Of a stretch of 64,000 bases of DNA, positions 15,192 to 50,336 are shown piece after piece. Position 1 is the first letter of the stretch. Each line of letters opens with the position of its first letter. The notes beneath the pieces are model-generated. The model did not search any database. It was not told where the DNA came from and saw nothing but the letters and a program-made list of their open reading frames with translations. The stretch is from Jiangella alba (GTDB taxonomy: Bacteria; Actinomycetota; Actinomycetes; Jiangellales; Jiangellaceae), in contig NZ_FNUC01000003.1 in NCBI RefSeq assembly GCF_900106035.1, positions 1,240,001 to 1,304,000 on the forward strand, given 5' to 3'. The position numbers and the translations under genes are program-made.

Positions 15192-15264
15192 CTCCCGCAC
15201 CTGGACTCGAACCAGGAACCCTCTGATTAACAGTCAGATGCTCTGCCAATTGAGCTATGCGGGA
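15192..15264 (-). tRNA. tRNA-Asn (anticodon GTT)
   Basis: A complete cloverleaf can be drawn on the minus strand. The acceptor stem is TCCCGCA/TGCGGGA with discriminator G. The D-arm is AGCTCAATTGGCAGAGC. The anticodon arm is TCTGA-CTGTTAA-TCAGA with GTT at the anticodon. The T-arm is CCTGG-TTCGAGT-CCAGG. The 3' CCA is not encoded. Confidence 0.97.
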
Positions 15265-34424: not shown

Positions 34425-34439
34425 CCCGCCCGCCCCAGC

Positions 34440-34503
34440 CTGTTGGTCATGGAGAAATCGGGGTTCCACTCGCCCGGAACCCCGATTTCCCCATGATCAA
34501 CAG
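34440..34503. repeat. Long near-perfect inverted repeat (28-bp arms, 8-nt loop)
   Basis: Arm 34440-34467 pairs with 34476-34503; of 28 positions 26 are Watson-Crick, one is G-T and one mismatched. Innermost pairs are GAAATCGGGGTTCC / GGAACCCCGATTTC. It lies between the ends of the convergent uxuB-like and lacI-family genes. It may end transcription, but is far longer than usual terminators. Confidence 0.7.
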
Positions 34504-34583
34504 GGTGAGGGGCAGCGCGGGGAACTACGCCTAGCTGTGATGGTCAGGCAGGTTGTTCAGTCGGGTGACGGGTGGTGAGCCAT

Positions 34584-47766: not shown

Positions 47767-49107
47767 ATGACCCGCTACGCCATCGCCGGACTGTCCAACC
47801 GCGGGGTCGCGAGCTTCGTGCGGCCCATCCTCGGCTCGCTGGGCGGCGCGGACACCGCGCTCGGCTACGGCGAGAACGCCGAGGACTACTCCGAGCACGC
47901 CGACGTCGTCGCGGTGGTGGACCCGGACGAGGCGCGGGTGACGGCGTTCAACGAGTCGCTGCTGCCGCCGGGGCACGCGCCGCTCGCGTGGTACGCGCCG
48001 GACGACTTCGACCGCATGGTCGACGAGGCGCGGCCGGACGTCGTCGTGGTGGCGTCGCCGGACCACACGCACGCCGCCTACGTGCTGGCCGCGCTGCGCC
48101 GCGACGTCGACGTCATCGTCGAGAAGCCGATGGTCACGACCGCCGCCGACGCCGCCGCCGTGCTGGCCGCGGAGCAGGCGTCGAAGGCGACGGTGCGGGT
48201 GACCCACAACCTGCGCTACACGCTGCGCCACCGCACCATCAAGCGGCTCATCCTCGACGGCGCCATCGGCCGGCCGACGCACGTCAGCCTCGACTACCAC
48301 GTCGACATCCGGCACGGCGCCAGCTTCTTCCTGCGCTGGAACCGGCGCCGCGAGCTGTCCGGCGGCCTGTCGGTGCACAAGAGCACGCACCACCTGGACC
48401 TCGTGTCGTGGTGGCTCGACGACGTGCCGGAGCGGGTGTTCGCGATCGGCGGCCGGCACTACTACGGACCGGACAGCCCGCACCGCCCGCGCGACGAGAA
48501 CGGCGCGCCGCTCACCGGTGCGGCGCTGCGCGACAACGACCCGTACTTCCAGGCCCAGCTGGGCAGCAACACCTTCCCCGACGGCGCCGCCGCCGACCGC
48601 GTCGGCCTGTTCGGGCTGTCCTACGGCCACCAGTACCCGGCCGGTCAGGACATGTACCTGTACGACGACGAGATCGACGTCGAGGACACCTACAGCGCGC
48701 TGGTCGCGTACCGCGGCGGCATCGCGCTGTCGTACACGATCGACTTCTCGTCGCCGTGGGAGGGCTACCGGGTCACCATCAACGGCACCCACGGCCAGAT
48801 CGAGACGCTGCACAGCCGGCTGCCCGGCGGCGGGGCGCTGCCCGGGTCGGACGACATCACCTACCGGCCGCTGTTCGGCGAGGCGCGCACCATCGAGGTC
48901 GCGACGGTCGCCGGCGGCCACGAGGGCGCCGACCCGCTGCTGCGGCACGACCTGTTCGTCGGGCCGGGCCGCGAGTCGCTGGACCTCGGCCTGCTCGCCG
49001 ACTCCGCCGACGGCGCCCGCGCGGTGGCGACCGGCGAGGCGATCTGGCGCTCCATCGCCACCCGCGAGCTCGTCGACGTCGAGGACCTGCTCACGCCGCC
49101 CGAGTGA
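47767..49107 (+). CDS. Gfo/Idh/MocA family oxidoreductase
   Basis: 446 aa, longer than usual for the family. N-terminal RYAIAGLSNRGVASFVRP replaces the standard GxGxxG loop. VIVEKPMVTTAADAAAVL is the EKP motif, and RVTHNLRYTLRHRTIKRLI, DYHVDIRHGASFFLRW and GGLSVHKSTHHLDLVSWWLD are the substrate-side motifs with His residues. It belongs to a glycan-associated branch often linked to polysaccharide loci. The ATG at 47767 is used; the longer form upstream would run through the operator sites. Divergent from the esterase operon with shared operators, so probably the same pathway. Confidence 0.88.
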   Translation: MTRYAIAGLSNRGVASFVRPILGSLGGADTALGYGENAEDYSEHADVVAVVDPDEARVTAFNESLLPPGHAPLAWYAPDDFDRMVDEARPDVVVVASPDHTHAAYVLAALRRDVDVIVEKPMVTTAADAAAVLAAEQASKATVRVTHNLRYTLRHRTIKRLILDGAIGRPTHVSLDYHVDIRHGASFFLRWNRRRELSGGLSVHKSTHHLDLVSWWLDDVPERVFAIGGRHYYGPDSPHRPRDENGAPLTGAALRDNDPYFQAQLGSNTFPDGAAADRVGLFGLSYGHQYPAGQDMYLYDDEIDVEDTYSALVAYRGGIALSYTIDFSSPWEGYRVTINGTHGQIETLHSRLPGGGALPGSDDITYRPLFGEARTIEVATVAGGHEGADPLLRHDLFVGPGRESLDLGLLADSADGARAVATGEAIWRSIATRELVDVEDLLTPPE

Positions 49108-49204
49108 CGGTGCCGCGGGGTCGGTCCTGCTCGCGTCGCCCGAGTGACGGTGCCGCGGGGTCGTCCTGCTCGCGTCGCCCGAGTGACGGCGCCGCGGGGT
49201 CGTC
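49087..49204. repeat. Three tandem 39-40 bp repeats spanning a stop codon
   Basis: Units at 49087-49126, 49127-49165 and 49166-49204, beginning CTGCTCGCGTCGCCCGAGTG. The first unit contains the last six codons and the TGA of the Gfo/Idh gene, so each later unit carries a copy of the gene's end. Confidence 0.85.
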
Positions 49205-49213
49205 CTGCTCGTC

Positions 49214-49271
49214 CGCCTTTGCAATGAGCACCGATACGCACCGGTGCGTATCGGTGCTCATTGCAAAGGCG
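49214..49271. repeat. 58-bp perfect palindrome without spacer
   Basis: The left half 49214-49242 (CGCCTTTGCAATGAGCACCG then ATACGCACC) is the exact reverse complement of the right half 49243-49271. It lies between the convergent Gfo/Idh and sigma-factor genes, 84 bp from the sigma stop codon. It can form a 29-bp hairpin or cruciform. There is no T-run. Confidence 0.9.
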
Positions 49272-49355
49272 CCCGTCGAATCCCGCACGGGGCAGGCCGC
49301 CGCTGCGGAATGACGCCGTAGACGTCGTCGAGCGTGCGGCTCGGTACGCGGCGCC

Positions 49356-50336
49356 TCAGCTGGCCCAGGCCATCAGCGACTCGTTGCGCCGCGGGTCGCG
49401 CAGCAGCATGAGCGCGTGCTTCTCGAGCTGGCGCACCCGCTCGCGGGACACGCCGACCTCGTCGGCGACGTCCTGCAGGGTGTGCTCGTGGCCGTCGACC
49501 AGGCCGTAGCGCATTCCGATGATCTTCGCCTCGCGCGTGGGCAGGGAGTCGAGGACGCTGCGCAGCTGCTCGCTCAGCGCCCGCCGCTCGACGAGGTCGG
49601 AGGCCTGGACGGCGTCGTCGTCCTCGATCAGCTCGCCGATGCTGGACTCGCCGTCGTCGCCGATGGGGGTGTCGAGGCTGAGCGGGTCGCGGGAGACGCG
49701 GCGCAACTCGACGACCTTCTCGACCGGGATGCCGGCCTCTTCGGCGACCTCGTCGACCGTGGGGTCGCGGCCGAGCAGCCGCTGGAGGTCGCGGTCGATG
49801 CGGTGCAGCTTGGCCACCGTCTCGGAGACGTGCACCGGCAGCCGCACGGTGCGGGTCTGCTCGGCCAGCCCGCGCTGGATGGCCTGGCGGATCCACCACG
49901 TGGCGTAGGTGGAGAACTTGAAGCCCTTGGCGTAGTCGAACTTCTCGACCGCGCGGATGAGGCCGAGGTTGCCCTCCTGGATGACGTCGAGGAAGGGCAG
50001 CCCGCGCCCGGACAGCTTGCGCGCCACCGACACGACGAGCCGCAGGTTGGCGCGGATCATGTGGTCGCGGGCGGCCTCGCCGTCGCGGACCAGGACGTCG
50101 AGCTGGGTCTTGTAGGACGGGGTCAGCTTGCGCTTGGAGGGCGCGGCACCGGCCAGCAACTGCTCGGCGTACACGCCGGTCTCGATGCGCTTGGCCAGGT
50201 CGACCTCTTCGGCCGCGGTGAGCAGCGGCGTCGAGCCCAGTTGGGCGAGGTAGCGGCCGACGAGGTCGGGCTCGCCCTCGGAACGCGCCTGGCGGCGCCG
50301 TGGCGTCGCGCTGGTGGCCTTCGGTGCAGCTGCCAT
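49356..50336 (-). CDS. RNA polymerase sigma-70 factor, group 2 (principal-like)
   Basis: 326 aa. Region 1.2 [22 protein letters not shown]. Region 2 has [60 protein letters not shown] and [12 protein letters not shown], all canonical for the RpoD group. Region 3 has [20 protein letters not shown]. Region 4 has [16 protein letters not shown]-type sequence (here [10 protein letters not shown]) and [20 protein letters not shown]. The long region 1.1 extension of the essential sigma is absent, so it is a SigB/HrdD-like stress or growth-phase sigma. AGGGGG precedes the ATG. An SOS-like box lies 51 bp upstream of the start. Confidence 0.95.

Follow-up and report, generated by a model that had tools for sequence, protein, structure and literature searches.

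The question raised by this locus is what a long and perfect palindrome represents when it stands between two convergent genes of Jiangella alba. We analyzed it in a 64,000-nucleotide stretch of DNA (hereafter the window), in the whole genome of the organism (G000; 7.68 Mb, four contigs) and in related genomes. We found that the palindrome is one copy of an interspersed, Jiangella-specific family of two-armed hairpins that is biased to the 3' ends of genes.

Structure and setting of the palindrome

The two arms (49214-49242 and 49243-49271) are 29 nt each, 100% complementary and 0 nt apart, which agrees with the initial annotation of a 58-bp palindrome having neither mismatch nor loop. The annotation had also placed it between convergent genes and directly behind a tandem repeat, and both points were correct: the genes encode a GFO/IDH/MocA oxidoreductase and a sigma-70 factor on opposite strands, and the repeat ends immediately upstream of the left arm. 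The features referred to below are as follows.

47767-49107, forward strand: gene for a GFO/IDH/MocA-type oxidoreductase; its stop is 106 bp before the palindrome, and its start codon is taken from our own gene caller
49086-49211, forward strand: tandem repeat of the oxidoreductase gene end (39-bp unit, 3.2 copies); a neighbour of the palindrome, with no claim that it belongs to the element
49214-49271, no strand: 58-bp palindrome, family copy, with a 50-nt core and a 4-bp stem extension on each side
49218-49231, forward strand: outer constant block of the left arm, TTTGCAATGAGCAC; with one mismatch tolerated, 143 arms were found, and 135 of these have it exactly
49233-49236, forward strand: variable spacer NNTA of the left arm (here GATA), which varies among copies and tends to be shared by the two arms of any one of them
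49237-49242, forward strand: inner block of the left arm, CGCACC, containing the base that is switched in genome G010 (CGCATC)
49243-49248, reverse strand: inner block of the right arm
49249-49252, reverse strand: variable spacer of the right arm
49254-49267, reverse strand: outer constant block of the right arm
49356-50336, reverse strand: gene for a sigma-70 family sigma factor, convergent with the oxidoreductase gene; its stop is 84 bp past the palindrome

Within the 64-kb window, the 29-mer arm matched its own two places alone, and 100 shuffles yielded none. The predicted folds were very stable, both for RNA (49200-49290, -57.7 kcal/mol, z -10.2) and for DNA (49210-49275, -37.1 kcal/mol, z -13.6), and formation of a cruciform is possible. 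In a 464-kb sample of G000, composed of the window and 20 sampled 20-kb stretches, the palindrome had the highest score of 17 long hairpins, whereas two triplet-shuffled controls of the same scan contained 0 hairpins. The runner-up of this sample also lies in the window (34439-34504) and has 29-nt arms with mismatches and a short loop. Apart from a tRNA at 15192-15264, no Rfam match at the gathering score was observed in the window. The protein neighbouring the palindrome has relatives in J. muralis, J. endophytica and J. rhizosphaerae with 96%, 94% and 92% identity, respectively, which agrees with the placement of the window in Jiangella. As for the tandem repeat, it duplicates the last codons and the stop of the oxidoreductase gene, and at the corresponding place G010 has just one copy.

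An interspersed hairpin family

A search for further copies, which had been proposed in the initial annotation, revealed that the palindrome is no lone insertion. The exact pattern TTTGCAATGAG-N10..40-CTCATTGCAAA had 47 matches in G000 and its reversed control had 0, so that at least 47 hairpins are dispersed over this genome. The consensus arm, TTTGCAATGAGCAC-C-NNTA-CGCACC, is bipartite: the 14 outer bases are followed by a position that is mostly C, the variable NNTA and the inner block CGCACC. The outer block was exact in 135 of 143 arms when one mismatch was tolerated, which is the less biased figure because the search patterns themselves impose part of the constancy of this block. At the edges of the elements, AAA followed by a G-rich run was present on both strands.

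The two arms face inward around a centre that is usually 0 or 10-12 nt and at most 170 nt long. In 59 fetched neighbourhoods we counted 55 pairs of inward-facing arms, of which 28 were spacerless, one was shortened, 18 had a centre of 10-12 nt and eight had one of 20-170 nt. Perfect 25-nt arms were present in 19 of the 47 copies, seven of them spacerless like the window copy. Single arms and direct arrays also occurred; locus L034, for instance, contains eight arms that point the same way at intervals of about 38 bp.

The arms of a copy are paired with each other, and their covariation is incomplete. In 21 of 46 copies both arms had the same 4-nt spacer, whereas shuffling gave a mean of 7.5 such copies and at most 16, and more than half of the copies carried some arm mismatch. 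Between G000 and G010, 23 two-arm changes preserved pairing, 14 of which are the dialect switch described below, and 47 changes affected one arm (29 breaking a pair, 16 restoring one and two doing neither). Between G000 and G008, six double changes were paired and three unpaired, and 25 one-arm changes comprised 14 restoring and 11 breaking ones. We also considered selection acting specifically on RNA, which might appear as an excess of G-U pairs; on the sense strand, wobble pairs were not favored over A-C mismatches (5 versus 6), which gives no sign of selection at the RNA level. Arms can be homogenised by template switching, a known process of mutation (PMC8604942), and this could produce pairing without selection.

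Analysis of gene context, based on gene calls from our own codon-score script without annotation, revealed that the copies favor gene 3' ends. The flanking genes were convergent in 27 of the 59 neighbourhoods, co-directional in 26 and divergent in five; one neighbourhood was unclassed, and two of the 59 loci overlapped a called ORF. The expectation, drawn from 194 sampled intergenic spacers of at least 40 bp, was 10.5, 29.3 and 18.2 (convergent, co-directional and divergent, respectively) by spacer count (p 1e-8), and 18.1, 23.1 and 16.8 by spacer length (p 0.001). The copies between divergent genes (5 of 58) count against the 3'-end reading. Among the 25 families listed out of 197, no recurrent kind of neighbour accompanied the elements: none of these families had more than three members among 101 of the 117 neighbour proteins. 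Tandem arrays, such as the one beside the palindrome, were considered as a hallmark of the elements and rejected. With a period of at least 30 they occurred at 11 of 59 element loci versus 10 of 130 control spacers (p 0.04), an excess that partly consists of the arms' own arrays, and with a period of at least 20 at 17 of 59 versus 25 of 130 (p 0.19).

Distribution, shared sites and species dialects

Family palindromes were present in 0 of 28 genomes outside Jiangella, and in 0 of 395 further genomes of a phylum sample that has few genomes in common with the former set. Among the 12 Jiangella genomes, a relaxed pattern gave 46 matches in G000, 29 in G008 and 24 in G010, one each in G001, G002, G003 and G011, and 0 in the other five. 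In G003, the only intact short palindrome occupies the L026/L207 site; in G006, one arm is left at the L017 site.

The comparison of the site among relatives, also recommended initially, revealed that G010 carries a palindrome at the window site in another spelling. A flank-tag test of 22 other sites in G010 found the element at 14 and its absence at four, the remaining four giving no resolution; with the window site added, G010 shares 15 of 23 tested sites. Of 24 copies in the more distant G008, 14 matched G000 sites on both flanks and 10 did not. The sites are thus old, and the earlier suggestion of a recent insertion at the window site is contradicted both by the element of the close relative G010 at that very place and by the sites that G008 and G000 have in common. 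At L042, only the left flank aligned with the corresponding loci L197 (G010) and L198 (G009), a hint of a rearrangement breakpoint near the element.

The situation in J. muralis (G009) was quite different. Its genome contained no exact arm, and no copy was found at any of 17 resolvable sites (five others gave no resolution). In a tree of the sigma-factor gene, G009 was nested inside the copy-rich clade, (G008,(G009,(G000,G010))), with supports of 95/96, 92/90 and 92/86; the tree is built on one gene and midpoint-rooted, and bootstrap support for two of the three key forks falls under the tool's own mark of 95. The family is therefore absent from a species nested among carriers, and this is explained more simply by a loss in G009. 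Unrelated hairpins were present in G009 at the window site and at some other element sites. One such type, GATCAGGTGAC...GTCACCTGATC, occurred at two G009 sites, L064/L080 (the window-site orthologue) and L180, where G000 has the element studied here.

A second hairpin family, GATCATCAACC...GGTTGATGATC, was observed in all 12 Jiangella genomes (G000 to G011; 1 to 44 copies) and in three other genomes of the same taxonomic family (G018, G019 and G020). An example is locus L203 (G000, contig C1, 218154-218201), and the inner sequence of this family seems to depend on the species, e.g. CAACCGTTGGCGACG in G005. We considered whether absence of the studied family might be an artefact of draft assembly, which is unlikely, as the second family is represented by 5 to 44 copies in the seven many-contig genomes.

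The spelling of the arms differed between species in a coordinated way. For G010, we examined 41 arms at 19 sites, a subset of its copies, and 40 of these arms had CGCATC as the inner block. At the same position, G000 had C in 122 of 132 arms (7 T and 3 A) and G008 had C in 48 of 48. Of 17 sites shared by G000 and G010 that were compared, 16 could be measured; the switch affected both arms at 14 of them (at one of these from A) and one arm at two. Thus, the arms have undergone a genome-wide switch of dialect. Some sites switched without losing their particular spacer (TTGA in L121) or loop (L045), an observation that argues against whole-element conversion. The 4-nt spacer showed a preference of its own, being TATA in 38 of 48 arms in G008 and mixed in G000.

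Possible functions and competing explanations

We would give an even chance to the reading that these elements are a REPIN-like family without a RAYT, which would mark transcript ends in both directions and whose sequence may be held by a putative coevolving factor. Function and trans-acting factor are what we infer here from comparison of genomes: the constant blocks, the coordinated switch at unlinked sites and the wholesale absence in a nested lineage together suggest a putative reader in trans. The element, transcribed from either side, would fold into a very stable RNA hairpin, and this hairpin may set or protect the 3' ends of both convergent transcripts without a U-tract. The constant blocks would be read by a putative sequence-specific factor, either a protein or a guide RNA; a change in its specificity could have driven the genome-wide switch, and if the factor was lost in J. 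muralis, this would account for the absence of the family there.

The earlier suggestion of a bidirectional terminator may be right in part. The place and symmetry of the palindrome are compatible with it, and a stable GC-rich stem-loop follows the stop codon, as expected of a terminator. The canonical form was not observed: a scan of 48900-49500 for canonical terminator patterns gave 0 matches, and none of the 47 copies had a U-tract, the 8 nt that follow the stem containing no more than two T whichever strand is read. The element is therefore at most a non-canonical terminator. Transcript ends in Streptomyces are reported to have few U and the longest and most stable hairpins among the species compared (PMC12207403), which makes a U-poor hairpin end plausible in Jiangella. 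The likeness lies in a GC-rich relative group with long stable hairpins and few U after the stem; on the other hand, the Streptomyces ends are defined by mapped RNA ends, whereas the Jiangella family is known here from DNA sequence alone, and the part of that report available to us describes no single conserved repeated sequence (PMC12207403).

A more specific form of this reading, which we put forward tentatively as a possibility, is a two-block 3'-end hairpin code that would be read by a dedicated non-RAYT factor of Jiangella, with drift of its specificity leading to the switch and its loss to the erasure in J. muralis. The DNA uptake sequences of the Neisseriaceae serve as inverted pairs in terminators. 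Like the Jiangella arms, they are a short repeated sequence with species dialects (PMC3630211), whereas the Jiangella family has far fewer copies and its arms are nearly always paired. If the code reading is true, it would represent a factor-dependent, sequence-specific, bidirectional system for transcript ends or for marking of the chromosome. Transcript ending is an unsettled matter in U-poor, GC-rich actinobacteria. With old shared sites, a measured change of dialect and, in J. muralis, a natural case of loss, the search for a reader becomes a defined comparative question, namely what is present and co-varies in G000, G008 and G010 and is gone in G009. Among the matches listed in literature searches on actinobacteria, Jiangella and terminators, whose coverage takes in few subscription papers, the family was not described, and those listed for arm 11-mers in paper texts were all unrelated by title. 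In excerpts of the J. gansuensis genome paper, the word 'palindromic' is used for CRISPR alone (PMC5292007).

Mobility is a more doubtful explanation, in which a REPIN-like non-autonomous element was copied formerly, or is rarely copied now, by a putative hairpin-recognising transposase, perhaps of a family other than Y1, the dialects reflecting coevolution of element and transposase. By anatomy, the element is REPIN-like: it shares with REP/REPIN sequences the inverted arms, the variable centre, the hairpin, the intergenic location with a bias to 3' ends and to unidirectional and convergent spacers, and the decayed single-arm remnants (PMC8049555, PMC3733652, as far as these were available), and coevolution of TnpA-REP with its REPs has been reported (PMC8266576). 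However, by GTAG tag and Y1 transposase it is no RAYT-mobilised REP. None of the 47 copies had the tag within 10 bp of an edge, and Y1_Tnp (PF01797) was found in 0 of 12 Jiangella genomes, whereas the same search was positive in 5 of 14 control genomes; we therefore rejected a RAYT-driven REP. The arm sequence also differs from that of known REPs, and the stem is perfect in 19 of 47 copies. Direct repeats at the edges of the 47 copies were at the level of chance (mean 3.19 bp versus 3.16 +/- 0.14 for shuffled partners), although one copy reached the maximum of 9. In the clearest recent copy, L035 (contig C2) has 154 bp in common with L036 (C3) at 97% identity, which indicates that the copy moved with its flanks rather than as the element alone. 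Thus, of the initial proposal of a mobile miniature element, the repeat family stood, whereas target duplication, a Y1/RAYT enzyme and copying limited to the element did not. The Jiangella elements resemble MITEs in being small and dispersed with inverted-repeat ends, and differ in that their target duplication is at chance on average and that a genome-wide search for Y1_Tnp revealed no transposase. CGTC-tagged palindromic repeats are likewise reported as an intergenic hairpin family without a dedicated transposase (PMC3733652, in part), whereas just 11 of 47 Jiangella copies have CGTC within 10 bp of an edge on either strand. The Jiangella family is a population of REPIN-like repeats, and the genus yielded no RAYT.

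It is unlikely that the elements are plain bidirectional 3'-end hairpins, acting through RNA structure only, spread by ordinary duplication, homogenised by recombination or template switching and read by no dedicated factor. The 3'-end bias, the copying of L035/L036 together with flanks, the known homogenisation of arms by template switching (PMC8604942) and the replacement of the element by unrelated hairpins at several G009 sites would all fit. However, structure alone needs no 14 near-invariant outer bases, and conversion of whole elements leaves unexplained the G010 switch at sites that kept their own spacers or loops (L121 and L045).

A local mutation bias instead of selection, for example a modified C in CGCACC, is a very improbable cause of the switch: it is a C to T transition at most sites, but only two of 96 CGCACC in the flanks of G000/G010 alignments became CGCATC (74 were unchanged and 20 changed otherwise), and the change at L045 is from A to T. 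Finally, long palindromes are a classic assembly hazard, but the initial concern about a folded read or join can practically be set aside, because there are 47 copies in G000, the carriers G008 and G010 are assembled as single contigs with the same structures, and the orthologous site in G010 has its palindrome in a different spelling.
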